From positions 1-25,178 of the forward strand of contig JAMYWO010000452.1 in assembly GCA_024220525.1 (NCBI GenBank): 25,178 bases of DNA. Reading direction: 5' to 3'. Below, piece by piece: positions 2,155-23,634 of the stretch (the stretch's first letter is position 1; every line of letters starts with the position of its first letter). Source of the stretch: Cochliopodium minus (taxonomy: Eukaryota; Discosea; Himatismenida; Cochliopodiidae). The position numbers and the translations under genes were made by a program. A model generated the notes under the pieces. It saw only the letters and a list, made by a program, of their open reading frames with translations, did no database searches and was not told the origin of the DNA.

Positions 2155-3953
2155 ATGAGGAATCGATATTTGCTCTCTGATTTAGATTTCTTTCTCATTG
2201 ATTATGTCACTCCTATCTTTATAGTTCTCATATCCCTCGAATTCTACTATTTTAGAAAAAAAAATAAACCTGTCCCTTTGAATGATGGGATAGGATCACT
2301 ATCAGCCGGAATAATGTCTCAAATAGTATTGAATCCATATATTAAGCCAATAGAAAGTAACAAAAATTTCTTCAAAGAATATTATTTTCTAATTTTTTAG
2401 GATTTGTTTGCAATAAATTGATCAAATTGGCAAATTATTCACCTTTTTACGTGGATGAAAGTGATTTTGGACCATTCACTTTTATATTATTATTAATTGT
2501 TGTTGATTTGGGTAACAATTATTGAAATGTCAATTTTAATTTAATATTCATTCAATCCAAACAATCGTTTAGCATTTTATACAAGGCAATACTTTTTTTC
2601 TTTCTTTTTTTTTTTTTTTGAACTAAATTTTTAGCCACTTCGTATCTCACAATGTAAATTTGTTTTGGTCATTTCATGTTGCACATCACTCGTCGGAAGA
2701 ATATAACTTTATGACAGCTCTGAGACAAGGACTCCTCGAAACAACTTTTTACTGGATGTTTTATTTACCAATTTTATTTTTCTTTGATTTATACCATGTC
2801 GTTCTTTGCAAAAACATGTAAAAGAGTGCTCTCTTTAGATTTATTTTTGAACTTTTTAACATATTTAGAAATGTAAAGAAAATAGATTCAATTTTTAAAA
2901 AAGGAAATTACTTTTGTTGCAGATAATCTTTCAGTTCTTTGTGCACACGGAAAGTATTCAAAAATTGCCAGCTTGGTTTGAATTTATATTCAATACACCA
3001 CAAGTAAAAAAAGAAATTCTTAATTGTTCTTTAAAAAAAAATTTATTTTTAATAGCACCACAGAGTACATCACGCAAGGCATTATTTAGTTTTTTCCTTT
3101 TCCCAAATTAAATTTAACATAAGTAAAAGAAATAAAAAATATCTAGGTAAAGAAATTTGAAAAAAAATCATTAAAAGTATCATTTTAATGAATGATTAAG
3201 ACAAAAACTATGCAGGTAAATTTCAATTTCACGATAAAGAAACTAAATATCATGAAATAATAAAAGGAATGTTCATTTTTATTGACAGGTAAAAATTTAA
3301 ATGAAAAAATTCTGAAAATTTTGAATCTTTTTAAGGATTTTTGGAACTTATGCTAATGAGGAAGAAACACCAAAATATGGTGTCGTTTATCCTATCTCCA
3401 CTTTTGATCCCATCACCATTCAATCCTACAACCTCGTCAACATCATCAAGGAATGCAACAAACTCCCTTCCATCAAGATAATTCTGAAATATCTCTTTTT
3501 GCCTCCTGGTTATACATACTCTCCAAAAACAGGATTGAAACTTGAACAAGTTCCTGTAAATTTTATTGGCAAATATTCATATTTAAATTTCATTAATAAT
3601 TCAATTTCATATAATTCATTAATTAGGATCCATATTTAAAATCTGAAAAATATAATCCTTCAACACCATCTTCTTATTCTTATCTCGCTCTTTTTCAATT
3701 TTTGCTCATGATGCTCTTTTATCTTTGGTTCTTGAAGTCACATAAAGAGATGTTGTTGATTTTAAGAATTTTTTGGACCATCTCCTTTGTTTTCCAATTG
3801 TGGGAGATATCTTCCCTCTTCGAAAACAAATTGACTCACAAATTTCTATATATGAAGGTGGTTTGGATAATTATTTCCACATTTTTTGATTATCGGATGG
3901 GATTATTATCATCGTTCAGTATTTTAAGTTTTGCATTGATCTCAACGATTTGA
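2155..3953 (+). CDS. AGMO: Alkylglycerol monooxygenase (fatty acid hydroxylase superfamily), 12 exons
   Basis: This is an integral ER-membrane, di-iron, tetrahydrobiopterin-dependent enzyme that cleaves the ether bond of alkylglycerols. The exons are 2155-2356, 2401-2511, 2573-2585, 2635-2817, 2869-2872, 2923-3003, 3056-3078, 3130-3146, 3201-3215, 3267-3288, 3336-3555 and 3627-3953. They sum to 1,218 nt (405 residues; human AGMO has about 445). Visible family marks in order: the N-terminal membrane segment TPIFIVLISLEF; LSAGIMS; DLAFYTSHFVSHN (HX3H at 110/114); WSFHVAHHSSEEYNFMTALR (HxxHH at 123/126/127); FVHTE; NTPQ-HHRVHH (199-204); KYLDKNYAG; DRIFGTYANEEETPKYGV; then a C-terminal domain with several hydrophobic helices. 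Eight metal-ligand histidines and the conserved Glu are all present. Introns 3 and 7 begin with GC. Small exons were placed by phase and by exact spacing against the family. The 4-nt exon is the least certain. AATAAA occurs at 3957-3962 just after the stop. Confidence 0.9.
2573..2585 (+). other. 13-nt microexon of AGMO (exon 3)
   Basis: CATTTTATACAAG lies between acceptor CGTTTAG (ending 2572) and a GC donor (AAG|GCAATA at 2586). With the flanking G (2511) and C (2635) it encodes A-F-Y-T-S. This turns the upstream VVDL and the downstream HFVSHN into DLAFYTSHFVSHN, matching the family's DxGYYxxHRxxHE. Skipping it shifts the frame to an early stop. No GT donor is available near its 3' end. Confidence 0.85.
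2586..2634 (+). other. GC-AG intron (AGMO intron 3)
   Basis: This 49-nt intron begins GCAATAC and ends AAATTTTTAG after a run of T residues. The upstream exon ends ACAAG, so the donor is AAG|GCAATA. The conserved protein on both sides fixes its borders, and no GT lies where it would keep the frame. Confidence 0.8.
2869..2872 (+). other. Proposed 4-nt microexon of AGMO (exon 5)
   Basis: The bases AAAT sit between acceptor ATATTTAG (ending 2868) and donor GTAAAG (2873). Exon 4 ends in phase 2 (AT, 2817) and the next clear exon starts in phase 0 (2923), so direct joining gives an immediate TAA. Adding AAAT restores the frame as I-N. It also gives the same number of residues as human AGMO between the conserved W-x-FY and x-x-x-QF segments. 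The flanking introns would be 51 and 50 nt, typical for this gene. The alternative is a 34-nt exon (2839-2872), also in frame, but it requires a 21-nt intron and adds ten residues that the family lacks. Confidence 0.65.
3056..3288 (+). other. Cluster of four small exons in AGMO (23, 17, 15 and 22 nt)
   Basis: The exons are 3056-3078, 3130-3146, 3201-3215 and 3267-3288, separated by introns of 51, 54 and 51 nt. Together they encode HHRVHHAR, NKKYL, DKNYA and GMFIFID, the last histidine box and the LDKNYxG signature. Every junction is phase-consistent: AG|A, G|AC, G|GA and AG|G. No longer exon is possible because the spaces between contain stops in the relevant frames. The first of these exons has a GC donor. 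Confidence 0.85.
3079..3129 (+). other. GC-AG intron (AGMO intron 7)
   Basis: This 51-nt intron begins GCATTATTTAG and ends AAGTAAAAG, after an exon ending GCAAG. It is bracketed by HHRVHHA and R-NKKYLDKNYAG. The next GT (3089) would add HYL and leave the frame closed at the following acceptors. The acceptor could in principle be an earlier AG, but only the AG at 3128-3129 gives the conserved sequence. Confidence 0.75.
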
Positions 3954-4080: not shown

Positions 4081-7000
4081 ATGGAACAATCCTTTTGCTT
4101 TGATCTTTTCAAAGGATTCAAATTATTTGGTGAACAATATGGGAAATTGTTAAATAATAAAGATATACAAAGATTGAAAAAATTCTCTTCAAAAACGGTA
4201 ATATATAATTAAACATCCTTCTCAAATATATTTATTTTAAAATTCAGAGGGAAGATTGGAAAATAATAGATAAAGAGGAATCAGTGGATCTCTTATCTCA
4301 ATTAATATTAGATAAATCATTAATGTTTGGTGTGATAAGATGCTTCAGACCATTGATTTTGGAATTATTTGGGAGAATCATTGAAAGAAACAATAAAGCT
4401 CTCAATAAAGATGAATACGAAAAATTGGTGATATTATTATCCTCCATATTAAAAATTTCATCTCCGCTATTATTAGATATGGCAATAGAATTCTTCGAAA
4501 AATCTCCATTTTTCTTCGATCATATAATAACTTCGAAAAAATATGAGACAGATCTTGAAAGAATGAAAGGATTATTAATAGCATCGAGAAATTTATTGAC
4601 ATATTCTCCAAAAATAAAACATATATGGGATTGGTCCATCCTCATCAAAATTTACTCCCAATCCAAAGACAATAAAATCAAAAATGAGTTGGGGAGAATT
4701 ATATCCATCCTATATAATATACAAGATAGTACTCAATGGGAAATTAAAGATATAAATAAAAATCTGGAAATAGATTTAATAATGTAAAAATTAATGCTTT
4801 TTCTTTGAATATTTTTTAAAAATTAATTCTTTTTTAGAGAGGAAGAAGAAATTGCAGTAGAGGAAGTTTTGCCATTGATTAGTGAACAAGGTTTTCGACC
4901 AACAGAAGAAGACAAACAAAAATATCCTCATTCAGTTTTTGTGTCTACTGATTTGAGATCTAAGCTTGTTGAAGTGTGCGGGGTGTTGCTTCCGGAAAGA
5001 AAGAGAAAGTACCAAACTAAAAATGAAACACAAAAACTAGTTTATACTGAGACATCAGTCAAAAACTTAAAAGCATTGGCTTTGACTTTGTCGAAAGGAA
5101 ACCCAATCCTTTTGGAGGGAGTCACTGGAAGTGGAAAGAGTACATTGGTGAGGGAGTTGATGAGATTAACAGGAAATGATGACATGATATCTGTGCATCT
5201 TGGCGACCAAACCGATTCTAAAATGTTGCTAGGAACTTATGTTTGTACAGAAACTGCCGGAGAGTTCAGATGGCAACCTGGTGCTTTGGCTCAAGCTGTT
5301 TCTGATGGAAAATGGATTTTGATTGAAGACATTGACTTGGCTCCCGTTGAAGTAGTCTCTGTTTTGATTCCTTTGCTAGAAACAAGAAAGTTGTTCATTC
5401 CTGGAAGAGGTGAAGAAATCAGAGCTTCCAGCGGATTTCAAATTTTTGCAACACAAACCCTTTCTGGAAGAACTAAAAACAAGATTCCTCCTGCTCTCTT
5501 GAATCTTTGGAATAAAGTAGTGATTGAACCTCTTTCTTATGACGAGTTGAAAAAAGTTTTGGAAACAATCCATCCAAAATTAACACAACACATTCCTTTG
5601 TTTATAGAAACATTTAAAATTTTGACAAATTCAGGAAGCTCGAAGAAGACTGGTGAAAGTTTGTCTATTTCTCATTTACGTCAGTTTTCTTCCAGAGATC
5701 TTTTAAAGTGGGTTCACAGAGTAGAACTTTTTTGCGACATCCCTTCTGGAAATACAAAACTCAACTTGAACTTGAAACAAAAGATATTCCAAGAAGCTTA
5801 TGACTGCTTTTGTGCAATGATTCCCAAAATAAAAATCAGATTGAGTGTAATTAATGCTATTGGGAAAGTGTTTGAGCTCTTTCCAAATGAAATCTCATTT
5901 TTCCTAGCTTCCAAACCTTCTTTTCAAGTTTCAAAACAAACTTTCGAAATTGGAAGATCTAACCTCCCCATCCAAAACAACTTCATTCGTTCAGTTGAAG
6001 GAAAGAGACCTTTTGCTTATACCAGAAATTCTTTAAAACTGATTGAAGTTATTTCCGTTTCTATCCAGTTGGACGAACCTGTTTTGTTGGTTGGAGAAAC
6101 CGGAACTGGTAAAAAATTTACTGCTTTTAAAATAAATTTATTCTTACATTTTAAAAGGTAAAACTAGTCATATTCAATATATCGCAGATCAACTTGGACA
6201 AGATTTGATAGTTATCAATTTGAATCAACAGAGTGATAGTGCCGATTTACTTGGTGGTTTCAAGCCTGTTGAATTGAGATCACTTTGTGTTCCTTTGAAA
6301 GAAAAGTTTGTCAGCCTTTTCAACAAAACTTTTTCAAAGAGTTCAAATAAAAAGTTCATTGAGCAAATAAACACAAGCTTTGCGGAGCAAAAATGGAAGA
6401 GATTTCTCACATTGATCTCACAAGCTATTGGTTTGGTAGAAAAGAAAATACAAAAAGAAGATGAGTACCAAATATCCAGCAAGCAACAATCTGATTCCCC
6501 AAAAAGAAAGTTGGAAACTACCAATGAATCTAAGCCAATGTCTTTCAAGCTTCGCGAGGAGTGGAAAAAGTTCTCAAACGAACTTGAAATTTTCGAATCA
6601 CAAAAAGAAAGAATTACTAACAACTTTGCTTTTTCTTTTGTTGAGGGATCTTTGGTCAAGGCTGTACAAAGTGGAAAGTGGGTACTTTTGGATGAGATAA
6701 ACTTGGCTTCTGGAGAAATGTTGGAGAGTTTGTCAGGGCTTTTGGAAGGTGGTTCACTTTGCTTGAGTGAAAGAGGTGACATTGAACCTATCAAAAGACA
6801 TCCCCAGTTCAGGTTGTTTGCATGTATGAACCCTCCAAATGATGTAGGTAAAAAAGATCTTCCTCCTGGACTAAGAAACAGATTCACCGAAATTTTTGTT
6901 GATGAGTTGGAAGATACTGATGATTTACGTATTCTTGTTTCTTGTTACTTCAACGATCTTGGTCACTTTTACTTTCACCCTTTTCTTATTTAATTAATAA

Positions 7001-10000
7001 AAAATTTTTTTTAAAAAGGTCTAAAATCTCGTGTGGATCAAATCGTTACTTTTTATCAAGAATCCCAAAAACTTTGCAAAACTTCTTTGAGTGATGGATC
7101 CAATCAAAAGCCAAAGTTTAGTTTGAGAACACTCACCAGAGCACTAGAATACAGCGAACAGATTTGCTCTACATATGGTTTGGAGAGATCTCTCCATGAA
7201 GGTTTCTCTATGAGTTTTTTGACCCAATTAAACAAAACATCTATCAAAATCATGGAAAAGCTTATCAAAACGCACATTGTAAAGAATCTCACCAAAAGTC
7301 AACTTCGTGTTTTGCCTAGTCCTCCAAAAACTCAAAACAATTGTGTCAAGTTTGAGCATTTTTGGATTGAAACTGGAGAGAAAGAGCCGATCGTACCTGA
7401 GGATTACATTTTAACTAATACAGTCAGAAAACAGTTACGTAGTTTAGCAAGAGTTGTGCTGTCAAGAAAATATCCAGTTCTTTTGCAAGGTCCAACCAGT
7501 AGTGGAAAAACATCAATGTAAACTTTTATTTTCTCCAAATTTTTGTTTTAACTTATTTTAATAAAGGGTCGAATATCTTGCAAAGAGGTCAGGACACAGA
7601 TTCGTCAGAATAAATAACCACGAACACACTGATCTTCAAGAATACTTGGGTACTTATATCTCTGACAAAAATGGGAAACTCTACTTCCAAGAGGGTATTC
7701 TGGTCGAAGCAGTAAGAAAAGGTAAATTTATAAATTGATTTTATTTAATAAAAAAAAAAAAGATTCTTAATTGAATATTTTTAAAAAAAAAGGATACTGG
7801 ATCGTTTTGGATGAATTGAATTTAGCTCCATCAGATGTATTGGAAGCTCTCAACAGACTTTTGGATGACAACCGAGAGCTATTTATTACTGAAACTCAAG
7901 AGACAGTAAAACCACATCCACACTTTATGCTCTTTGCAACACAAAATCCTCCAGGAATGTACGGAGGTAGAAAAGTTCTTTCTAGAGCATTTAGAAACAG
8001 ATTCGTTGAAGTTCATTTTGATGAGATCCCTGGAGAAGAATTGGAAATTATCCTCGAAAGAAGATGTGCTATGGCCCCTTCTTACAGTAAAAAGTTAATC
8101 GAATTGATGAAAGAGTTGCAAAGAAACAGACAAAAAAGTAAGGTCTTTGCTGGAAAAGATGGATTCATCACTTTGAGAGATCTTTTCAGATGGGCAGAAA
8201 GACAACCTAACGGATATGAAGAACTTGCTGAAGAAGGATACATGCTACTCGCAGAAAGACTGAGAAATTCATCTGAAAAAACAATTGTCCAAGAAGCTAT
8301 CGAAAAACATCTTAATGTGAAAATTGATATCCAAAAAATCTTCTCTCTTGGTGACAAATATTCCGGCAAGTGGGAAGAAATCGACAAAAAATTGAAGCAG
8401 CTGATTGAGAACAACTCTGAAAATCTTCAGGGTCTCCAGAAAATCGTGTGGACAGAATCCATGAAAAGATTGTATGTACTTGTTGAGAAGTGCTTAAAGT
8501 TTAAAGAACCTATCCTTTTGGTTGGTGAAACTGGATGTGCCAAAACAACTGTTTGCCAAATTATTGCAACAATCAATTCACTCAAATTAGAAATCTTGAA
8601 TTGTCATCAACATACTGAAACATCTGACTTTCTTGGTGGTTTGAGACCAATCAGAGGAAAGGAGGCAATTGGACAACAACTATCTGGAAAGATCCTTCAA
8701 TTTTTTGCTTCATCAAAGAAATTGAATCTGCTCACCCAAATTGATAATGTTCCAAGTGACAATTCTGCTTTGAAAGAGATCATCAAATCATTTGATCTCT
8801 TCTGGAAAAGAATCGAATCTACTCTCAGCAAAAGAAAAAGAGATACAGAAGATGAAATCAAAAATGATAATGTTTCACTCTCTCAATTAAAGAAAGATGG
8901 ATTGGAGATCTTGCACTTGAAGCAACAATATGATACTTTATTTGCATGGCATGATGGACCTCTTGTACAATGCATGAAAGAAGGAAGCGCATTTCTTATT
9001 GATGAAATTTCCTTAGCTGAAGATGCTGTACTTGAAAGATTGAACAGTGTTTTGGAAAGAGGTAGAATGCTCACTTTGGCTGAAAAGGGAGGTGTTGAAA
9101 TTGAAGAATTGGTAGCGCATGAAAACTTTAGATTCTTGGCCACTATGAATCCTGGTGGTGACTTTGGAAAGAAAGAGCTTTCTCCTGCTATGAGAAACAG
9201 ATTTACAGAAATATGGGTTCCACAGATTGAAAATCCAAAGGATCTATGTGATATAATCGAAAGTAGATTATCCTCAAAATCATTAAATATGTTCAGCGAA
9301 ATGATCCTCAAGTTTGTTTTTTGGTATCACAAAGAAAGTGGCACATCCAACATCAGTTTGCGTGATCTTCTCTCTTGGGCCAGCTTCATCAATACAAGTG
9401 TCATCTCTTCAAAAATTGATCCTTTTCACGCATTCATTCACGGATCTTCTCTTGTTGTGATTGATGGATTAGAGATTTCAACTACTTTCACTCCTCACTA
9501 TTGCAAAGAATTAAGAAAGAAATGTATCCAAAAACTCCAAGAAATTGTTCCTGAAGAGAGAAGGGAGCTGGTTGAAGAACAATTCAGGTTCAAAAATAAG
9601 ATCCATCTATTTAATTCGATCCAAGACAACAATCCTTTCGTCCAAAACGGAAATTTTGGAGTAGATCCTTTCTTTATTCCTGTTGGCAACAGTCCTGTTA
9701 CAAAAGTAAATTACTCTATGAATGCTCCTACAACTTTCAAAAATGTTGTTCGTGTCTTAAGAGGATTGCAACTTCCAAAACCTATTTTACTTGAAGGAGA
9801 TCCTGGTGTTGGTAAGATCTAATTCATTTTTCCTTTTATTTTAAAATCTAATATGAAAATTTAGGTAAAACAACTCTCATTGAGGCTTTGGCAAGAGCTT
9901 CTGGGCACAGTGTTGTCAGAATAAATCTTTCTGAACAAACAGATATGATGGTATCTATTTAAAAATCTTGAACTTTTATTTTGTTAGTTTTTTACCCTAA

Positions 10001-13000
10001 ATAAAGGATTTACTCGGAGCAGATTTACCTGTAGAAGGAGAAAGCGGGCAATTCGCTTGGAGAGATGGTATTTTCTTGACTGCTCTCAAAACCGGAAAGT
10101 GGGTTCTTCTTGATGAATTGAACTTGGCATCCCAATCTGTATTGGAAGGTTTGAACTCTTGCTTGGATCACAGAGCTACCATTTACATCCCAGAAATCGA
10201 TCAATCGTTCAGTTGTCCACCAACTTTTAGAATATTTGCCTGCCAAAATCCAACCATGCAAGGAGGAGGAAGAAAGGGACTGCCAAAATCTTTTTTGAAC
10301 AGATTCACTAAAGTTTATGTTGATCAACTTTTGCCTACTGATTTGCTTTACATTTGTCAACAATCCTTCCCAAAGATTGATCCTAATCTTCTTGACAAAA
10401 TGATCAGTTTCAACTCCCAACTTTATACCGAGACAATGATTGAAAGAAAGTATGCAAGAAATGGAAGTCCATGGGAATTCAACTTGAGAGATGTTTTCAG
10501 ATGGTGCCACTTGATGGTAAAGCATCAATCTCCAACATCTTGGGATCCTTCTCTTTTTATTGACTTGATTTACTTGCAAAGAATGAGAATCAAAGAGGAC
10601 AGAAAAAAAGTGGAGGCTTTGTATGAAAGCATATTCAAAGTAGATCTTTTGTCTAGCCAACTTTACGCTCAACAAGAGTTTCCTTTTTTCCACATCACAC
10701 CTTATTATTTGCAAGTTGGAAATTCCTTCACCCAAAGAAAGAGATTTGTTCCAACCACCTCTATGGATATCCATCAAGATCAACTTGAATTGTTGCAAAA
10801 GAACATGAGAGCATTAGAAAATTTGGTAAAATGTGTTGAAATGAACTGGATGAGTATCTTGGTTGGACCTACCACCAGTGGAAAGACTTCTCTCATTCGC
10901 CTCCTCTCTAAACTCACAGGAAATAAACTTCACGAGTTCGCAATGAACAGTTCTGTGGACACCACAGAGTTGTTAGGAGGTTTTGAACAGATCGATCTTG
11001 GACATCATAAATCCAACTTTATCAAGAAGATCTCTGAATTGATTGATTTGGCAACGAACATAATCCTTTCATCTTCACCAAAGAAGAAATCTCAATCTAA
11101 TCACCAACTTTTGAGCAACTTGCACGAACTCCATTCTTCTTTTTTGAAGAGAAAAAAATTTGAGATGTCCAGTGGAAAGCACTCAAGCAGAACTGAGACT
11201 TTTGGGGAAGAACAATACCAAACATTACAGACTATTCTTGAATTGCTTTTAAAGATCTTCACTCCTTCCAATTTCCTTGATGAAAAAGCATCTGAAGAAG
11301 AGGTTTTCGTAAAGGACGAGCTCAGAACCATCAAAGATTCTCACGAACATGCTACACATCTTTTGAACGAACTCAACAGGCTTGTAAAAATTGAAAGACA
11401 TTCGATCACTGGATGTTTTGAATGGATAGATGGTCTTTTGATCAATGCTCTTGAAGAAGGATCTTGGATCTTGATAGACAACGTTAACTTTTGTAATCCT
11501 TCTGTTCTTGATAGATTGAATCCTCTTTTAGAACCTGGTGGTTCTTTGCTCGTCAATGAAAGAGGATTGTTGAATGGAGAACCTAAAATCATCTTTCCTC
11601 ATCCTAATTTCAGAATCTTCTTCTCCATGGATTACAACAATGGAGAAATCTCTAGAGCTATGAGAAACAGAGGTGTTGAAATTTGTTTACTTGAACCGAC
11701 CATCTCAAATGATCAAAAAGCAGATTCAATGTTGTCTTACGACATCCTCTCTTTGCTCTCAAAGATGGGAATAAGATCTGATAAAATCTCCACATTGTTG
11801 ATCAAGTTCCACAATTCTTTGATCACAACGAACAACTTTATGATTGAGAATCCTCTTACACTTAGAAACCTCCTTCAATGTGCAAGTTTAATTGTAGAAC
11901 AACTCAAGACTGGATCACCTCTTCAGGAATCCATAAATAATTCTGTTTATCAAGTTTACATCGCCAACAAAATCAGCACAGAGCAAAGAAAGTTTGTTTT
12001 ACAAAAATTTGAGGAGACATTCCTTCCATTCGACCAAAAGTTGATAAATCCTCTCCTAAATGATACCATCTTTCAACCAAACTTGTGGCCTTTGTTTGTT
12101 GGTACCGATAAATACTTGCACAACTCTGTCTTGGCAACCATCTTGAGACAATCTTCTTTATCTCACTACAAAATTGGGCAAACAAATCTCAATGAGGTCA
12201 ATCCTAACAAAAAACTCATCTTTAAAAATCCAATCGAGATTTGTTCCACCATGGGATTAAAAACTTTCAATACCCAAAATTCATCAACTAATCCTCCAAG
12301 TGATTTTTCTCTCCATTCTGACGACATCACTTTTCTCTACTTGGTGGAAAACTGCACCCTTGAAGATTGGAAAGAGAGAGTAAAATGGTTGGAATACACT
12401 TTGAGTAATACTCTTGCATCCCAAACAAAGGAGAAAATATCCAACTACATCTCATTGATCACTCATTTGATGAACAAATCCAATTTAGTCAAACTAAGAT
12501 ACACCATCCAAGAAAAGCTAAAAACCTTTCTCTTCCCAACTGAATTGCACATCTTTTCTTTTCAACCATTGGTTTTGACTCTCAATCATAATCTCATGCA
12601 TCTCATTGAATCCAAATCTAAACAATCTGGGGAACAAAAGATCGTAGATTTGTTCAATTTCTTTTGCGATCTTCAATTCAGAATCGATATCGAGATCAAA
12701 TTGTTCCAAGACAAAATCAGTGAAGATCAATTGTACTCACAAAGAGTATCAGATGATCAAAATCAAATCACCTGCATTCACAAATCTTTCCTCTCTTCAA
12801 AGGACAAACTTAAACTAAAAGAAACAACCTATTCTGAGCTCATAAAATTAATCTACCCCTTTTTCTTGTACCTTGATCAACAAATCGTATCATGGTTGAT
12901 GTTGGAGTATCCTATCATAATTGGAACTGATCACATTGCTAAATTAGAAAACTTGGTAGGATTCAGAAGTTATTTGTGGAATGGTTTGAATAACATAAAG

Positions 13001-16000
13001 TTCAACTTGGGTAACTTTCTTGTTCTTTGGGAAGACATCTGTGAGGTTCTCCAGTTCTTTGACGAAATAAATGTACAACACTTCAAACTTTCTACTGATC
13101 TTTACAATTGTGTCAAGAACATCAACTCTATGATCAAACAGCAAAATTTACAGCTCAAAAGTACTTTGTGGAAGCACTCCCAACCTCCAATGATTAAAAA
13201 TAGAAAACTGTTTGAGATTCAACAAAAACTTAAACATTTAGACGAAAAGTTCTTTGAATTTAAACCAGAATTGACTGTAGAATCTCCAATATTCACTCTA
13301 TCCAAGAGCTTGAAAAAGTCTTTTGTTCAAACATACTGTACCCTTTCGTATGTTGATGAACAACTGCTCTCTTCTACAAATTCAAAGAACGAACCAATCA
13401 AAAATTTGGAATCAATTGAAGCAGTTACTGAAAGTATTGGAAAGCAATTACAAGAGCACGAAGAGAACACTCAAAAATACTTTGAGAGTTTGAAACTCAA
13501 GAAAGATGAGAACAAAGAAGTTGATGATGATGATGAAGAAGTAGAAGATAAAGAAGAAGAAATCAAAAATCCAATCTTTGATAACTCTGAAAGAAGTGTT
13601 TTGCCATTCATTGAACATTCTAATCTCTCGAAAGAATTTCAAATCATCTCTGATCTGATGTTGTTCTTGCTTCCTTTCAAGTACAAGGACATTATCGCTT
13701 CCAAATGGACTGATCGTGCTTTGGAGAAGTTCAAAACTGTTGTACCATCAATAGAAAAGTGGTTGGAGACAGATTCTTGGGATTCATTGAGATCTCCATT
13801 AGATTTCACAAACTATCAACAAATTTTATGGAGTTATGAGGAAACACAACTTAGCAACAACCAAAGTTTATTCATCAATTTGCCTTCTCTTGTCCAATCC
13901 GTTTTATACAAGTGGCACAAGCGTTTGTGGACAAACTACTTCAACGATCTATCTGTACTAAGAACATTCAAGATAAAAAAGAGTCCAGAGTTGATCCAAA
14001 CAACTTCTAACGAAGTTTCTTTGCCTGGATTCCTTGATTTGGTTGGATCTTCAAGAATCTTTCAAAGTCTCCAAACCATTCTTTCTTTTTATCATCTTGC
14101 CAACTGGCATCACATCCCTCTTAACGAAATTGAAGATAAAAGATTGCAACTTAAAAAATTGTGCTCCCATTATTACCAATCCTCCATTCCTCAAGTCCAT
14201 CAATTGGATTGGAACGTTCTCATTTACACTTTTGGTGCTACTATCTCTCCTTATTGGAAATTTTGGAAACCAGAAAAGTTTTTCGAAATGTTTGAGAACA
14301 TCTACATCATCCAAAAGACTTTCGAGAAAAAAGAGAAGAATTTGCAAAACGTAGTTGAAATTTTGGAAAAGATCAAGCCTATCTTGTTAGATTGCTCTGA
14401 TAATCAATTCAAACAACAACTTGAGACCTTTATCAACCCATTCTTCACTATCATCACCAACATCTGCCTTGGGAAACATAATGAAAGCCATCTCTCTGAA
14501 ATATTTCACAGATGTAATCTTTGGATTTTGTTGTCTCTTTTCAGAGTCCACTTGTTGATTCCCATTCATAATGTTGATCCATCAGTAAAGTACTCTGAGA
14601 AAGTAGGTTACATGAACAGATTCTTGTCTCAAATAAAGATTGAATTGGAGAACAGAAAAGAACTTGAATCTTTGTTCACTGGAAGAGATTTCAATCATAA
14701 GACTGTCAAGTTGATAGAAAAGATAGAAAAATTATCCGAAAAAATAGATAAAACAACCATCAAGATGAAAGTGAGACCGATTGTCGAAGAAAAGATTGAA
14801 GAAAACGAATTTGTAGAAAACTTTGAAAATCTTTATGAAGAAATCCATTTCTTTTCCGACAATTTCCTCAAGCAAGATAATCTCATTACAATAATAGAGA
14901 GATTCAAACAACTTATTAGTGCCCAAAGCACACAGAAGAAGCAGTTGCTTGAGAACATTTTTTCTGAAGAAAACCATTGGCAAGATAAGAGTTTGCATCT
15001 CCTCCAATCTCTTTCAAGGAAATACAAGCACTATGAAGATGTGGTGATGCCATTTTCTATTGCTGTTTACCAGATCAAGTTTGCATTAAGATTGATCGCA
15101 TCTTCATGTTCTTTGAATATCACCTCAAAATCTATCAAAGGAGAGGCAACATCTTTGTTGAACACTACAGATAAATCACAAGTCAAAAGATTGATTCAGA
15201 TTCTCTTGGCATTTCCATCAATCAGTACTTATGAAAATGATACAAACATCCAAGCCAAATCAATTGCTTTTGATAGTAAATTTGTGATTTCTGAAAATAC
15301 ATTATCTTGCATGGAAAATGTGATGGGTTCTTACTCTACTGAAGAGAGACAAAGGAACAAACACAGAATCATGTCTTTGATTTTTAGAGGAACCCTCTCA
15401 AGATTGTACACCCAAACTTTGGAATGTGGATACCTCAGTAAGAACACTTTGCAGATGTTTGATCACATCTTCAACAGCTTCGTCAAGACTTGGGCGATTT
15501 TGGAAGAAGAAAAGATGGAAGAGCTTAGAAAGAAGGAAATGGCATTTGAATTTAAGCAAAAGACTCACATCTTGGCAACAGACGAAGAAGAAGACGAGAA
15601 GAACTTTCAGAACACTTTTCCCGAGTATGACAGTGTGTTTGTTGATCTTGATGACGAAGCTCCTCCTGTGCCTTTGGAAGATATCGGGAAAGAAATTTCA
15701 TCAAGTAAGTACACAAACGAAGAGAGATTAAGGAGTGCAGAAAAATCGATCTTGATCAGCGTTGAAGATCAATTGTTCCAAATTTGTAAAATACATCAAT
15801 CTCTTTTCAACAACATCAACCACAACTTCTCCAGTGCACAACCAAAGATCATTTCCAAAAATTCTGCAAAAACTAAAGTTTCCAAAGAAGAAAGAGTAGA
15901 CAGTTATATGTTGTCTTACAAATCTGCATCCATGATCTTGCAAGCATTATCTTACAACATTGATCTTGATGTTGAAATGGATCAAGAAACCCTTTCTTCT

Positions 16001-19000
16001 CAATTGATTGCATCAAACGCTCTCAAAGAAGTAATTGAGATAACTCCCATCAATTTGAGTCAAGTGAAATCAGAAACACTGCCTGGTGTTACAGATGCAC
16101 TCAACCCTTCTGATTTTGAATATTTTGACAACTCTTTCGGATCCTCTTCTTTTGCTGATAATACAACTGAGGATAGCATTCTCATTCCAAGCAAAAGCAA
16201 GAAAATAAATTACAAAAAGAGAGTTTCCACTGACAACACGTACAACATCTACAAAGATCCTAACATTCCCGAAGCCAAACTTGTTCTTCAGCCATTGGAA
16301 AACCTGAATAAGAGAATTGTAGAACTTTTAAACGAATGGCCAGAACATCCTGCTCTTGATTTGTTGTTGAAAATCAGTAAGAGAATCATGTCATTCAAGA
16401 TCACTGAGCCTCTAAACAAATTCTTGACTGGATTGGAATTTCTCCTTACAAAATCACAAAAGTGGGAGGAAGTTGCTGCAAAACACGTTTCACTTGATAA
16501 ACAACTTCATCAGATCACTTTGCTTATTGCTAGATGGAGAAAAATTGAACTGTGGTCTTGGCCTCAAATCTTGCAAATAAGAGCTAAACAATATGAAGTA
16601 AATGCTTTAAAATGGTGGTTTCATTTCTATACTTCCTTGCATACCTATGAACCTCCCAAAGTAGAATCCGAAAGAGAGAGAAAAGAAGTTCAATACCTCA
16701 CTGATCAAACTACCAACTTTAATCAATTCATGGAACAATCTACTATTGGTGACTTCAAACTCCGCCTTTCCCTCCTCTTTTCTTTCTATAGACAACTTAA
16801 TGTCGAACTCGAGAGTGGATACTGTGAAAGTAACGAGAATGAAAACAAATTACCTCCTCACTTGGTGTTAATTATGATGAAGATCTTGAGAAATCTCCAT
16901 AAGTACTATTCCCAATTTTTGGAGCAATACACAAAAGTTTTGGAGAGCCAATGTGAAAACCTCAAAAACAAGTTCAAAGATGAAATCAAGTTGGCTAGAT
17001 GGGATACAAGATCATACTACAGAATCAAAGAACACTCTGACAAATCCAAAAGAAAAGTTGCTACTTTCGCAAAGAAGTTTGAAGAAATTTTAAAATATAC
17101 TATGAAAGAGTTGGTCTTCTCCATAGTTGATGACAACATTGCAAAGGAGAACTCAAATAAAGATGCTTGCCTTGTTTATGATGAAAAACAACTAAAGTTA
17201 CTCGAGAAAGAACGCAAGGAAAAGGAGAAAATCCGATTGAAAGAACTAAAAGAGAAAGAACAATTTGAAAAGAACCAAAAAAAAAAGAAAAAGAAAAACG
17301 AAAAGCCTAAAGTTGATCCTGAAGAAGAAAAAGAGATGGAGAAAGTAAAACAGAGAGAAGAAGCAGAAGAACAAGAGAAAATGCTCTCTGTTGAAATCAG
17401 CTTGCCTCTTTTCACATTGAAACAACTTACCTGCAACTATGATACAAATGCTATATTCCAATCTGGAAAAATCAATTTCGAAAAGATTGATCCTAAATAT
17501 TTCTCCCAATTTGATCTTTCGAGCTCCATTTCCCAAGAATCTGTCAATTTTATCACTAATGATCTTTTCCAAGCTAACAACACAGAGAAAAGACTTTCCA
17601 AAATGGATAAACTCTACATCAAAATGCAACAGGTGATGAAAAAGAAAATCTTTGGACAGTTTGAAAACGGAGAAAAAAAGATCATTTCACCTGCTCAAAC
17701 TGCAGCTAACAATTCACTCAACACAGAGTTTCTTTCTATCAACATTCTTCAAAGATTGGTTTCACTCCAAAAAGAAGATGTAACTAGAAGTGAAAAGAAA
17801 CTTGCACTTTCTCAATTACTAAAAACTCTCAAATCTGTTGGATTGACTTTCCTCACCAATGCGATCGACAGAAGAACTGAAGATACTGTTTATTTGCTTC
17901 AATTACCAACTTGTGATATCTTGCAAAGAGTTTCTGTTTGTTCCAACTATTCCCAACAGTTGGACATTCCTAACTTTGATACATCATTTGATGTTACTCT
18001 TCTTAAATTGGTCAGAATTGTCTGGAAAAAGTCTGAGCTTTATTACTACAAGTCTCTTTACAAACTTAACATCTTGAGAGAGCTCTCCAAGACCTATTCT
18101 CAAGACTTGACATCATTTGAAGTAAAACAGGCTGTTGGTTATTGTCAGTTTCTCCTTCACTTTCAGATCCAACAAAGAGAAAATGTTGACACTTGGTTCC
18201 AAGAATTTGAGAAGCTCTCTATCAACTCGTTCAACTTTTCTAAACTCCCAAAGCTTTATTCAGATAATAAGGAAAACCAAGAAGAAATCAACGAAGAAAA
18301 AACTATTGGCACCTTTAGCGAGCAAACTTTCATCAAAAGCTGGACCCTCAAACAGAAACATATTGTGGATAACTTTTGTGAACTTTTAGAGCAATACTCC
18401 ATACTTGTTAATTCCATCGATAATAAAGATAATCAAAAAGAATCCATCCTTTTGGTATCTAACATGGAAAAATTTGTTTCACTGCTCTCAGGATGTAATG
18501 ATATCCTCAAACAACAACTTTCTTTCTTCGAGAATTTGGAATTGAAGGCACTCGAGAATGATTTTCAGACCCTGTTCAGTTTTGTTGATTGTAATCTCTT
18601 GGACAAAAACTTTTCTATCATTCAGACTGTTATTAATGAGCTTTCCACCAAGATACTTTGCAAGTTGCCAGAATCATTCTCCAATTCCATGAATGTATTT
18701 ATCGATCAAGTATCCAAAGAGGTTTCCTTCTACAGAGAAAAGTTAAAAGAAAAGAAGACCTCAAAGGATCTCAACGAAAACACCGATATCAAAAACTTTG
18801 CCAATGAATTTGTTGAAATTTATGAAACGATCATTTCGCAAATCTTGATATCTGTCCAAAACTTGATGGGAAAGGAAGAGAAGAAAGATGAAAAGAACGA
18901 CAAAGATGACAAAGAAGATAAACCAGAAAAAGAAGAAGAAGAAGAGTTGGATTTTGATCTCTCCCTCCCTGATAGTTTCAATCAACTCTCCAGTGTAATC

Positions 19001-22000
19001 AAATCCTTGAAAATCGACAAATTGAATTCATCCCTCGAAAAAATAAAAAAGATGGTAGGAGAATTTTGCAACAAATCATGCAATCACAAAGACAAATGGT
19101 TTGTAGAGTTCTTTGCATTCTCTATGCTTTCAGATCTCCATCCTCTCCTTGAACAGTTTAGAAGAATTCATGGAGATTTGATCTACAGAGGAATTTTGTT
19201 GAATAAGGCTACAAGTAAGCTCTCGTACATCCTTGTAGGTATTTTCTCCACATTGTTTAGACAAGGATTCTGTGGATCAAAGGATGAAGACGAAGGTACA
19301 GAAGTAGGAGAAATGAACTTTGCGGGAACAGGTATGGGAGAAGGAAAAGGACAAAAGGACATATCTGATCAATTGGAAGACCCAGAAGAACAGATGGGAG
19401 GTACCAAAGACGAAAAAAAAGAGAAAAACGACGAAGATAACAAGGAAGAAGACAAAGGTATTGAAATGGAAAATGATTTCGAAGGAGAACTTCATGATGA
19501 CGAAAAGGAAGAACAAGATGAAAAAGATGACGAAGAAGACGAAAAATCTGCAGACAGAGAAATGGGTGATCTTGAAAGTGAAGAAGAAAACGTAGTTGAC
19601 GAGAAATTGTGGGATAAAGATGAGGAAAACGATGATCAAGAAAAAGATGAGAAAGATGAAAAACTTGAAAAAGATGCACCTCTTGAAGATGATGGAAATC
19701 AAGAAAAAGAAACCCAAGCTAAACAAGGAGAAAAAGATGATGATAACAAAGACGACAAAAATGACGAGAAAGATAAAGAAAAGAAAAAAGAAGAAAAAGA
19801 GGACAAGAATGGAGGTGATGTCGATCAAGACAAGGACATGAACGAAGAAGGAGAAGGAGAAGAGTCAAGTCAAGAGGAACCCATCAATCCTCAAGATAAC
19901 CAAAAGACAGAAGAAAACGGCGTGGATATGCAAGACGAAGAAGACTTTGAAATACCAGAGAACTTGGAATTGGAACAAGGATCAGAAGAAGTTCCTGAAG
20001 ATATGGACCTGGGTGAGGAAAATCAAGATGATGAAAAGGGTGATGAAGAAGAAGAAAAAGAAGAAGAACAATTCCCAGAAGTAGAAGACAAAGAGAAGGA
20101 TAACGAAGAAGATCAAGACAAGAGCGACGACGAAGAAGGTGAGGAGGCCAATGACGTCCAGGAATTACAGAAAGATGGTGAAGATGAAAAAGACGAAGAA
20201 TTGGAAAAGATCGATGACAATATCACCCAACAACCTTACAAGAACGAACAACTCGAAAATCCTTATGGTGTCAAAGATCAAAAGGGTGAAACCAACGACA
20301 TGCAAGAAGATGATGAGAACAACAAAAATCAACAGCAAAATGATAATGAAACAAAGGGAAAACCCGAGAAAGACGAAGAACCAAACCAAGACATGAAAGA
20401 AAACCAACACAGTGACTTCAACCAAATGGAAGCCAATGACACTCAAGACATGGAAAAAGCAAAGAACAGAGAAATGCCTAACCCCCTCAGAAACCTTGCA
20501 TCTGCCCTTCAATTTTTGAAAGAAAACTTGAATGTAGCTCCTGATACAAATGCTGAAGACATGAAAAATGATGATAACAAAGAAGAAAACAACCAAAACA
20601 ATGAAGAAAAGAAAGCAGAGAAATACGAATTCAGCAATGATAAGAACGAAAACGCCCAAACTCTTGCACCTGCCACTGAACAGCAAATGAAAGAATCTCT
20701 CTCGAAGCCCGAAGAAGAAAAAGATGATAAGGGAGAGAAAGAAGTGATGCAAGACGAAGAAGATGCTAAGGATGAGAAAAAAGTTGAAAAGGAAGAGGCA
20801 AAAGAAGAAAAAGGAAAGCAACAGAAGAATGCAAAGAATCCTCCCCAGAACACTTTTGATTTCCCCAAAGAGGATGAGAAGAAAGATGTAGAAGATGAGA
20901 ACAAACAAGAGATCGATCAAGAAAAGATGGACATAACAGGTGAAGATGAAGTTGAGAAGGACAAACAAAACCAAGTCCTCGAACACAATCAAAAGAAGTT
21001 GTCGTCTCAAATAGAGAAAAAACTGGAAGAGCTTGAAGAACAAATGATCGAAAATGAATTGAATGAAATGGAAGGAGATATCCCTTCTTTCGATGAAGTG
21101 ATGAGATTAAGAGAGGAGCTCAAGAAAGATCTTGCTGAAAACCACAAAAGCGAAACCAAATCTGAAGAAATGTGGAGAAAATTTGAGAGATTAACTTCTC
21201 ATCTTTCCCAACAACTCTGTGAGCAGTTGAGATTGATTTTGGCTCCTACTCTCGCTACCAAGTTGAAAGGAGACTACAAAAGCGGAAAGAGAATAAACAT
21301 GAAGAAGATCATCCCTTACATCGCTTCACAGTTCAAGAAAGACAAGATCTGGATGAGAAGAACCAAACCCAACAAAAGACAATACCAGATCATGTTGGCC
21401 ATTGATGACAGTAGATCTATGGAAGACAATGGAAAAGGGGAACTCGCATTAGAAGCACTCACCACTATTTCCAAAGCTCTTTCCAAATTAGAAGTGGGTG
21501 AAGTTTCCGTTGTCAGTTTTGGTACAGATGTCAAGTTGTTGCACAGTTTTGACATGCCTTTCACCGACCAACATGCCTCCCGTGTCATTTCCCAGTTTGA
21601 TTTCAAACAAAACGAAACTAACATGCAACTTTTGATGCAGAAGGTCGTTCCTATCATGGAGTTTGCCAAACAAAACGCTTCCTCTTCTTCCTATGACAAC
21701 CTTCAGATCGCCTTTATCATCAGTGATGGTATCCTTAACTCAAGAGGCTCACAACTCAAGAAGTGGATAAGAGAGGCAGCCGAGAAAAACATCTTGATCG
21801 TTTTCTTGTTGATAGATAACAACAAATCCGAGTCTGGCAAGAGCGAATCTTTTCTTGACATCATGAGTGTCGAATTTGTTGAAAATAAGCTTGTCAAGAC
21901 CTTGTATATTGATAATTTCCCTTTCCCTTACTATGTCATCTTAAGAAACATCGAGAACTTGCCTGAAATCTTGGCTGATTCTCTCAGACAGTGGTTCGAA

Positions 22001-22018
22001 ATGGCAAACGAAAATTAA
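4081..22018 (+). CDS. MDN1: Midasin, giant dynein-like AAA+ ATPase of 60S ribosome biogenesis (complete, nine exons)
   Basis: Midasin (Rea1) sits on pre-60S particles. It uses its ATPase ring and MIDAS domain to pull off assembly factors of the Ytm1 and Rsa4 type. The exons are 4081-4197, 4248-4783, 4838-6108, 6158-6961, 7019-7517, 7567-7721, 7793-9811, 9865-9950 and 10007-22018, giving 5,832 residues (yeast about 4,910, human about 5,600). Six AAA modules follow an N-terminal domain. Walker A motifs: GVTGSGKS (about 312), GETGTGKT (637), GPTSSGKT (1067), GETGCAKT (1372), GDPGVGKT (1795) and GPTTSGKT (2116). Walker B: LIEDID, LLDEIN, VLDELN, LIDEIS, LLDELN and LIDNVN. A linker of about 2,400 residues leads to a D/E/K-rich tract (about 4920-5510). 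The C-terminal MIDAS domain has DDSRS (5629-5633) and IISDG (D5736). The start ATG follows TTATTTATTTATTC. TAA ends the gene 78 bp before the next one. Exons 1 and 2 are the least conserved, but they are in phase. Confidence 0.96.
6109..6157 (+). other. Midasin intron 3, inside the AAA2 Walker A codon
   Basis: This 49-nt intron (GTAAAAAATTT...TTTTAAAAG) is in phase 1 and splits the Gly codon of GETGTG-K-T. The downstream exon begins GTAAAAC, which repeats the intron's own 5' end. The AAA5 intron (9812-9864) splits the equivalent Gly codon in the same phase. Confidence 0.85.
9812..9864 (+). other. Midasin intron 7, inside the AAA5 Walker A codon
   Basis: This 53-nt intron (GTAAGATC...AAAATTTAG) is in phase 1 and splits the Gly codon of GDPGVG-K-T. 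Its position in the module is identical to that of intron 3 in AAA2. The downstream exon again begins GTAAAAC. Confidence 0.85.
17195..17385 (+). other. Highly charged Lys/Glu insert in the midasin linker
   Basis: A stretch of about 60 residues alternates Lys and Glu, with a nine-Lys-rich core (QKKKKKKNEK) and KEMEKVKQREEAEEQEK. This is typical of a single long charged helix. It interrupts ordinary helical linker sequence. Shorter charged inserts lie at 13500-13565 (VDDDDEEVEDKEEE) and 18870-18950 (KDDKEDKPEKEEEEE). They help account for the length above yeast Rea1. Confidence 0.7.
19276..21060 (+). other. Acidic D/E/K-rich region within midasin
   Basis: About 590 residues are dominated by Asp, Glu, Lys, Asn and Gln, made of irregular units such as DEKDDEEDEK and NEEGEGEESSQEE. 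All midasins carry a flexible acidic arm between the linker and the MIDAS domain that lets MIDAS reach its substrate. Here GAA/GAT/AAA codons make the plus strand almost pure purine over 1.8 kb, which explains the long Phe/Leu-rich antisense frames. Two islands are less charged: an M-P-N-P-L-R-NLASALQFL helix near 20475-20520 and another near 20840-20870. They may be short docking motifs, though that is inference. Confidence 0.9.
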
Positions 22019-22096: not shown

Positions 22097-23634
22097 ATGA
22101 ATTTGAACTATTCCAAAATTTTCAAAATTTTGCCTTTGTTCATTCTGATTGGTTTCATTATATTGATGATTATGATATTGAATGGCCCAAAGTCAAACCT
22201 TTCATCTCAATTATTAAATTTTGGAAAACCAAGATACAAAATATTGGAATATAAAGGTCCTATCAAATCAAGCAAAAACATCAAAAATAATCAAAAATTC
22301 ATCGATTTGGTTTATACATGGGTGAATGGCTCGTAATAAGCAAAAAAAAATTTATTTATAAATTTATGTTATCAAACTTTCTGAAAAGTGATCCATATCA
22401 TATCAAACAAAAAGAAATGTATCTCAAAAAATCTGATAACAAAAAAATTCAAGGCAAAAATTTAAATTTAGGAAGAAAATTAATATTCCTTTTTTTATTT
22501 TTTTTTTCATTTTCAAAAATCAAAGATATAGGAGAAAGCAGATTCAATGATAATGAAGAACTAAGATATTCATTAAGAAGTGTGGAGATTATGGCACCAT
22601 GGATTAGAAATATCTTTATCGTAAAAAAATTATCATACATATATAGATCATTCCCTTTTGCAATATAATTGAATTTAATCCCAAATAACAAGATATTTCA
22701 ATATAATATTAGGTAACCAATGGGCAAGTACCCTATTGGTTGGATATCAACAATCCAAAGATTAAAATAATCAAACATTCCCAGATATATTTGAACAAAA
22801 ATGATTTGCCCACATTCTCTTCACTGTCAATAGAGTAAGTGAAAAAGTCATTTATTTATTTATTCATAATATCTTTGTCAGATGCCATATACATAGAATA
22901 CCAGGTTTGTCTGAAGAGTTCATTTATATGAACGATGATATAATGTTTGGAAATCAAGTGACAATAGCAGATTTCAAAACGAAAAAAGATGAATACATAG
23001 TCTATTTGGACAAAGAATATTTAAATGGTAAAATTATAAGAATAAATGTTCAGAATTTTATATTAAGATTTTTAATTTCCAATTTTATATAAAGAAAATA
23101 TTGCTGGACATTCAAGCCATATCAGCTCGATGGTTCATGTGAATCATCTATACAACGAGAAGTTCGGCAAGAAGAACAGATATAAGATAGCTCATGTTCC
23201 TCTTTTTCTCAACAAAAAAATCCTTTCCAACCTTCAGAAAACTTTTCTTCCTCAATTCCTTTCCACTTCTTCAAACAAGTTCAGATCACCAAATGACATG
23301 CAATTCTCTTTCTCGTAAAAAAAAATTAATTATGTTTTATTTTTTTTTTTTCATTTCTTTTCCAAGATATTTTTACTTTTTGATGGAATCAACTGAAGAC
23401 TCCAAAAAAATTTATAAACATGTCACCACCCATGATAATTACGTCACTCTCAATGTTGACAACGACCTCCATTTGGTTGGCCAATCTCTCAAAAACGCCT
23501 CCTCTCAGAAGCCCAAATTCATTTGTATTAATGACGACTTGGACTATCACAACTACGCCACACAATCACTACACTCTCTTGTTCAAAGTTTTTATAAAGA
23601 TTTTTATCCTAATCCCTCTTCTTTTGAAATTTAA
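22097..23634 (+). CDS. GNPTAB: Stealth-family GlcNAc-1-phosphotransferase, GNPTAB-like, compact form (seven exons)
   Basis: This likely Golgi type II enzyme transfers GlcNAc-1-phosphate from UDP-GlcNAc, in animals to mannose of lysosomal enzymes. The exons are 22097-22332, 22389-22453, 22526-22620, 22713-22834, 22882-23027, 23095-23314 and 23367-23634, giving 383 residues. An N-terminal signal anchor ([18 protein letters not shown], about 11-28) is followed by all four Stealth regions. CR1 is [15 protein letters not shown]2 is [16 protein letters not shown]...[21 protein letters not shown]3 is LPTFSS...[20 protein letters not shown]4 is AHVP...[18 protein letters not shown]. The last 60 residues (HLVGQSL...[15 protein letters not shown]...[14 protein letters not shown]) match the C-terminus of GNPTAB beyond CR4, which favours this subfamily. 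The large spacer, Notch and DMAP inserts of the roughly 1,250-residue animal protein are absent. Intron 2 (22454-22525) begins with GC. The specific substrate is not known. Confidence 0.88.
22454..22525 (+). other. GC-AG intron (Stealth gene intron 2)
   Basis: The exon before ends CAAG, followed by GCAAAAATTTAAATTTAGG. The 3' side is a long T-rich tract ending ATCAAAG. No GT donor exists in the stretch that must be removed. Splicing gives [16 protein letters not shown], and the spacing from CR1 to CR2 is then as in short Stealth proteins. The region is also open if unspliced, which would insert a hydrophobic [11 protein letters not shown] segment, so retention cannot be excluded. Confidence 0.65.

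Follow-up and report, generated by a model that had tools for sequence, protein, structure and literature searches.

Gene content of the window

The window, that is, the whole stretch of 25,178 bases analyzed here, has a GC content of 33% and carries genes with spliceosomal-type introns. It gave no Rfam match at the gathering threshold and no tRNA prediction. The following genes were identified:

2155-3953, plus strand: AGMO-like gene
4081-22018: midasin gene (PDB midasin matches down to an E-value of 1.5e-276 for the last exon)
from 22097: Stealth-type gene (Stealth CR1-CR4, Pfam)
minus strand: apparent gene for a small coiled-coil, membrane-tailed protein (Pfam match below threshold only)

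The midasin gene has nine exons, with all introns located in its first third and a last exon of 12,012 nt that includes a long acidic stretch. Collagen-like Gly-x-y repeats, composed of tandem units of 18, 27, 36 and 54 nt, extend over two frames with many stops at positions 700-1480; this stretch looks like a decayed gene.

Structure of the AGMO-like gene

Alkylglycerol monooxygenase (AGMO) is defined by the tetrahydrobiopterin-dependent cleavage of ether lipids. Like the earlier note on this DNA, we take the gene at 2155-3953 to belong under this name. Its 12 joined exons form a single frame of 405 codons from ATG to TGA (405 aa). The predicted protein carries an FA_hydroxylase domain (PF04116) at residues 95-228, with an E-value of 4.5e-25 that is above the Pfam gathering cut-off, and the histidine boxes expected of the class, which were aligned as HxxxH, HxxHH and HHRVHH. 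Judged by its sequence, the host gene appears to be AGMO-like and to function in fat metabolism. The gene model, together with the intron that competes with part of it, is as follows (all on the plus strand):

2155-2356: exon 1, 202 nt, ATG start; donor 2357 with a posterior of 0.992
2401-2511: exon 2, 111 nt
2573-2585: exon 3, a 13-nt microexon followed by a GC donor; splice-site posteriors 1.0
2635-2817: exon 4, 183 nt, with the histidine motifs HFVSH and HVAHH
2818-2868: intron 5' of the 4-nt exon, 51 nt, GTAAAA...TTTAG; posterior 0.936
2869-2872: proposed 4-nt exon AAAT (exon 5), completing an Ile codon and encoding Asn171
2873-2922: intron 3' of the 4-nt exon, 50 nt, GTAAAG...TTGCAG; posterior 0.936
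2818-2903: competing single intron, 86 nt, ending TTTTTAAAAAAG, with exon 6 then starting at 2904; posterior 0.064
2923-3003: exon 6, 81 nt
3056-3078: exon 7, 23 nt, HHRVHHA, followed by a GC donor
3130-3146: exon 8, 17 nt
3201-3215: exon 9, 15 nt, DKNYA
3267-3288: exon 10, 22 nt
3336-3555: exon 11, 220 nt
3627-3953: exon 12, 327 nt, TGA stop

Six of the 12 exons are thus no longer than 23 nt. The introns of the gene measure 44-71 nt, and two of them begin with GC after CAAG. GC replaces GT at 3 of the 30 placed introns of the window (2586, 3079 and 22454), in each case with CAAG before the boundary and GCA after it. The share of GC donors is about 1% in most eukaryotes, and the value for the window looks high.

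The gap between exons 4 and 6

Exon 4 ends with AAAAACAT at 2817 in phase 2 (ACAT) and is followed by the donor GTAAAA at 2818, while exon 6 opens with ATAATC at 2923, directly after TGTTGCAG, which ends at 2922. The earlier note had pointed out that these exons are out of phase, and direct joining indeed produces a stop at codon 171. It had also proposed that the four bases AAAT, with AG before and GT after them, restore the frame; this was confirmed, with ATATTTAG ending at 2868, AAAT at 2869-2872, the donor GTAAAG at 2873, and introns of 51 and 50 nt on the two sides. Both borders of this ultra-short microexon (at most 15 nt) are therefore of the types used in the genome (acceptor AG, donor GT or GC). 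The AAAT model would also match the residue count of human AGMO in this segment, as the earlier note had stated.

The accompanying claim that AAAT is the only short insertion of this kind was confirmed: it is the sole in-frame, stop-free insertion when both introns are held to 44-72 nt. However, the note's list of rivals had missed the actual and simpler competitor, an in-frame single intron. Insertion of AAAT is needed for an open, homologous frame between exons 4 and 6, but the frame is also kept, with no stop, if the gap contains no microexon and a single 86-nt intron is removed (2818-2903), in which case exon 6 starts at 2904 (GAAATTACTTTTGTTGCAG...) and the predicted junction is AAAAACAT-GAAATTAC (position 2904). 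The latter model adds five residues to the protein compared with the AAAT model and four compared with its homologs.

The frequency of such solutions by chance was assessed in 1000 dinucleotide shuffles of the gap interior. A feasible microexon arose in 92 shuffles, one scoring at least 338 bits on the homolog profile described below in 23, and one matching the real score of 342.4 bits in a single shuffle. In-frame single introns are easily obtained by chance, as they arose in 419 of the shuffles and scored as well as the actual 86-nt intron in 196.

Splice signals

The splice sites of the gap were compared with those of 28 other introns of the window (9 from AGMO and 19 from other genes), which had been placed by frame and homology. 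The control introns are 42-72 nt long, plus three of approximately twice the usual size (22621-22712, 92 nt; 458-353, 106 nt; 24486-24375, 112 nt). In the AAAT model, acceptor 2868 scored 6.07 bits (above 13 of the 28 controls), donor 2873 scored 5.73 bits (above 8) and acceptor 2922 scored 3.45 bits (above 5). The acceptor of the 86-nt intron at 2903 (TTTTTAAAAAAG) reached 8.93 bits, exceeding 27 of the 28 control acceptors, and this stronger site counts against the microexon. The length of the 86-nt intron also finds some parallel in the 92-112-nt introns of the window.

The order of AG dinucleotides points the other way. In 24 of the 28 control introns the acceptor is the first AG located at least 44 nt from the donor, and the same rule predicts both introns of the AAAT model (2818 to 2868 and 2873 to 2922). 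The four exceptions are the 42-nt intron and three introns in which a single AG is passed over. Use of the acceptor at 2903 would mean passing over three AGs that lie at least 44 nt from the donor, and none of the 28 controls passes over more than one.

Seen from the AAAT model, the site at 2892-2903 is a strong acceptor-like sequence within the second of the two proposed introns, and just 31 nt separate it from the donor of that intron. It may act as a decoy, or else serve an alternative isoform whose protein is five residues longer. A further candidate, a GC donor at 2808 (3.92 bits), was rejected; it was not among the donors with a posterior above 0.02 in the decoding described below.

The earlier note had named as its competing reading a 21-nt intron followed by an exon of 34 nt (2839-2872). 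This exon has an open frame, but the shortest control intron is twice as long (42 nt, n = 28) and the acceptor at 2838 scored -0.65 bits. Together with the homology results and the posterior given below, these values led to rejection of the 34-nt exon, which can hardly be correct.

Comparison with homologs

Homologs were collected using the window model with AAAT as the seed, yielding 97 loci: 12 from plasmids (taken from 140 records matched by tblastn), 80 from genomes (the best 80 among 587 confirmed relatives), with 5 more from viral contigs. Four loci were left out, namely L022 and L063, whose translations broke off at 8 and 72 aa, and L096 and L097 (distant and without the marker residues). 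The remaining 93, all from prokaryote, plasmid or viral-contig collections, served for an alignment and a profile from which the window sequence was excluded.

All 93 homologs share an interval of 21 residues that leads from a conserved proline column (80 of 93 have P) to an invariant Q; this marker Q was part of one of the two search patterns, so that its invariance is partly by construction, while the preceding interval was not imposed. The corresponding interval is 20 residues in the AAAT model, 25 with the 86-nt intron and 30 with the 34-nt exon. The value of 20 occurs in none of the 93 prokaryote, plasmid or viral-contig homologs. The Asn encoded by AAT matches the most frequent residue of its alignment column (Asn in 48 of 93).

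The AAAT model obtained the highest score on the profile of the 93 homologs (342.4 bits) among 101 models scored, comprising 100 in-frame models (AAAT included) and one model with a one-base error. The runners-up were a model with a 19-nt intron (332.6 bits) and the 86-nt intron (331.1 bits, i.e., 11.3 bits below AAAT), while the 34-nt exon reached 324.7 bits; the other in-frame one- and two-intron models were rejected on the same profile. The broad Pfam model separated the readings less clearly, with 89 bits for AAAT, 87.4 for the 86-nt intron, a difference of only 1.6 bits, and 81.6 for the 34-nt exon.

The one-base-error model assumes that exon 4 is in reality one base longer (for example in the A run before ACAT) and is followed by a 105-nt intron (2818-2922), or that a true frameshift occurs there through a ribosomal -1 slip. 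With one additional base the A run gives an open frame that scored 331.0 bits, introns of 106 and 112 nt are present in the window, and the decayed collagen-like stretch at ~700-1480 changes frame, showing that indels, whether true or erroneous, occur in this contig. Conversely, the joined midasin model runs through 5,832 residues with no internal stop, and indel errors are therefore rare in the coding sequence of the window. In addition, the P-to-Q interval would be 19 residues, the 105-nt intron would skip four AGs, and the sequence C AAA AAC does not read as a canonical slippery heptamer. We consider an error or frameshift at this position very unlikely.

The position of the length difference was examined in the predicted structure of the bacterial homolog L015 (340 residues, mean pLDDT 94.9, 28 sequences). 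In this model the invariant Q152, the counterpart of Q175 of the window protein, is located within helix 138-154. Asn171, encoded by AAAT, lies four residues before Q175 and within the corresponding helix. In the alignment, the residue that the AAAT model lacks follows the proline immediately, a place close to where helix 121-134 ends and ahead of the short loop at 135-137. The junction lies inside a helix, where additional residues would be awkward, and one missing residue at the former place would probably be easier to fit than the four extra ones resulting from the 86-nt intron.

A search of the PDB revealed no relatives of AGMO, just three unrelated phosphatase chains with E-values of 0.32 or worse. 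Scans of viral contigs with AGMO and midasin found no relatives of the same lineage; they yielded AGMO-like loci at 23-34% identity, two AGMO pieces and one weak 18-residue midasin match.

Decoding of the spliced gene

The different lines of evidence were combined in a spliced-profile decoder, which sums over the gene structures possible when donors are GT or GC and acceptors are AG, and which draws on the profile of the 93 homologs. Its splice matrices and intron lengths were derived from the 19 non-AGMO introns of the window only. Applied to 2155-3953, the decoder found all 11 AGMO introns unaided, including those around the 13-, 17-, 15-, 22- and 23-nt exons, and at every undisputed splice site of the model the posterior was at least 0.992. 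The sites of the 4-nt exon (2868, 2873 and 2922) obtained 0.936, the acceptor of the 86-nt intron (2903) 0.064, and the 34-nt exon, the competing reading of the earlier note, 0.0000. The 4-nt exon is therefore the best-supported reading of the gap at the main settings, ahead of every model that lacks it.

The result was tested under 11 altered settings, of which nine gave the AAAT exon a posterior above 0.5 and two a value of 0.37. With intron rates of 0.0002, 0.001, 0.003, 0.009 and 0.03 per base the posterior was 0.37, 0.75, 0.90, 0.96 and 0.99, respectively. It was 0.998 when the splice sites were reduced to their dinucleotides and 0.37 with flat intron lengths, and four subsets of the homologs gave 0.86, 0.87, 0.89 and 0.75. 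The 86-nt intron is thus preferred (0.63) if intron lengths are ignored or if introns are assumed to be very rare. As a null model, the 86-nt intron was left intact and the remainder of its sequence shuffled (n = 300); an additional donor reached 0.936 in none of the shuffles and 0.5 in two. Taking both sides together, we regard a single 86-nt intron as unlikely.

The decoder does not penalize a 4-nt exon for its steric difficulty, and for this reason the final confidence was lowered by judgement. We estimate at about three in four the probability that the AGMO-like gene has 12 exons, with AAAT at 2869-2872 as exon 5, most likely a coding exon that is spliced into the mRNA constitutively.

Proposed recognition of the 4-nt exon

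The AAAT exon would contribute the third position of an Ile codon and a complete Asn codon, inside a predicted membrane helix. Its skipping would end the protein at codon 171, before the metal-binding motif HHRVHH. The flanking introns are of ordinary size for this genome, and each could be recognized across itself (intron definition). The two introns would probably be removed one after the other, since four bases hardly leave room for splicing factors to bind simultaneously at either end. The earlier note had called for a special way of recognizing so small an exon; with introns of ~50 nt, the splice sites could pair across each intron, and no such device would be needed. The fold of the region, examined for an RNA structure bridging the 4-nt exon, showed nothing unusual (z -0.04).

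Exons of this size are rare but not unprecedented. The 4-bp exon of human TNNI1 and the constitutive 4-bp exon 2 of human MPC1 are supported by RT-PCR, and the description given for them includes no detectable skipping in the cells tested (PMC9929638). The MPC1 exon conflicts with the statement of the earlier note that exon definition is impossible at this size: it is flanked by introns longer than 12 and 3 kb, and exon definition through the proximal introns is the mechanism favoured by the authors (PMC9929638), whereas intron definition would suffice for the AGMO introns of 51 and 50 nt. The AGMO exon resembles those of MPC1 and TNNI1 in being internal, exactly 4 nt long and not a multiple of three, and in having flanking splice signals that carry the information, but it is predicted from genomic sequence whereas the human exons are proven by RT-PCR (PMC9929638).

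In plants, 1-nt exons are reported in APC11 and VPS55, which, like AAAT, are needed for the frame (PMC4674806, PMC8831610). They are described as conserved across species and have RNA evidence, in contrast to the AGMO exon, which is predicted from the genome of one eukaryote (PMC4674806, PMC8831610). As stated in the Arabidopsis report, the smallest exons known before it, in 2015, measured 6 nt (constitutive) and 3 nt (alternative), and for the 1-nt exon intron definition with successive removal of the introns was judged likelier than exon definition (PMC4674806); by extension, we infer the same mechanism for the AGMO exon. Among the titles and abstract openings listed in the literature searches, no comparable case of microexons or tiny exons was found in protists.

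Exons of 4 nt are a test of how short an exon may be and still be spliced. The published examples that we came across are from human and plants, and a gene with introns of ~50 nt would suit pure intron definition. Prediction programs that require a minimum exon size can get such genes wrong, and a standard predictor could well select the in-frame single intron in the present case. Intron definition in this lineage, where introns are mostly 42-72 nt long, might even be so efficient that exon size is nearly unconstrained, with exons of a few bases common throughout the genome and missed by annotation. We consider this extension doubtful; if true, AGMO, with its six exons of at most 23 nt, the 4-nt one among them, would represent the usual kind of intron-dense gene in the lineage.

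The host gene itself is unusual. It shares the domain, motifs and full-length frame of the FA_hydroxylase superfamily (PF04116), but is split into 12 exons, half of them no longer than 23 nt. The five other small exons, of 13-23 nt (2573-2585, 3056-3078, 3130-3146, 3201-3215 and 3267-3288), have splice-site posteriors of at least 0.997, and as a set they are perhaps more striking than the 4-nt exon.
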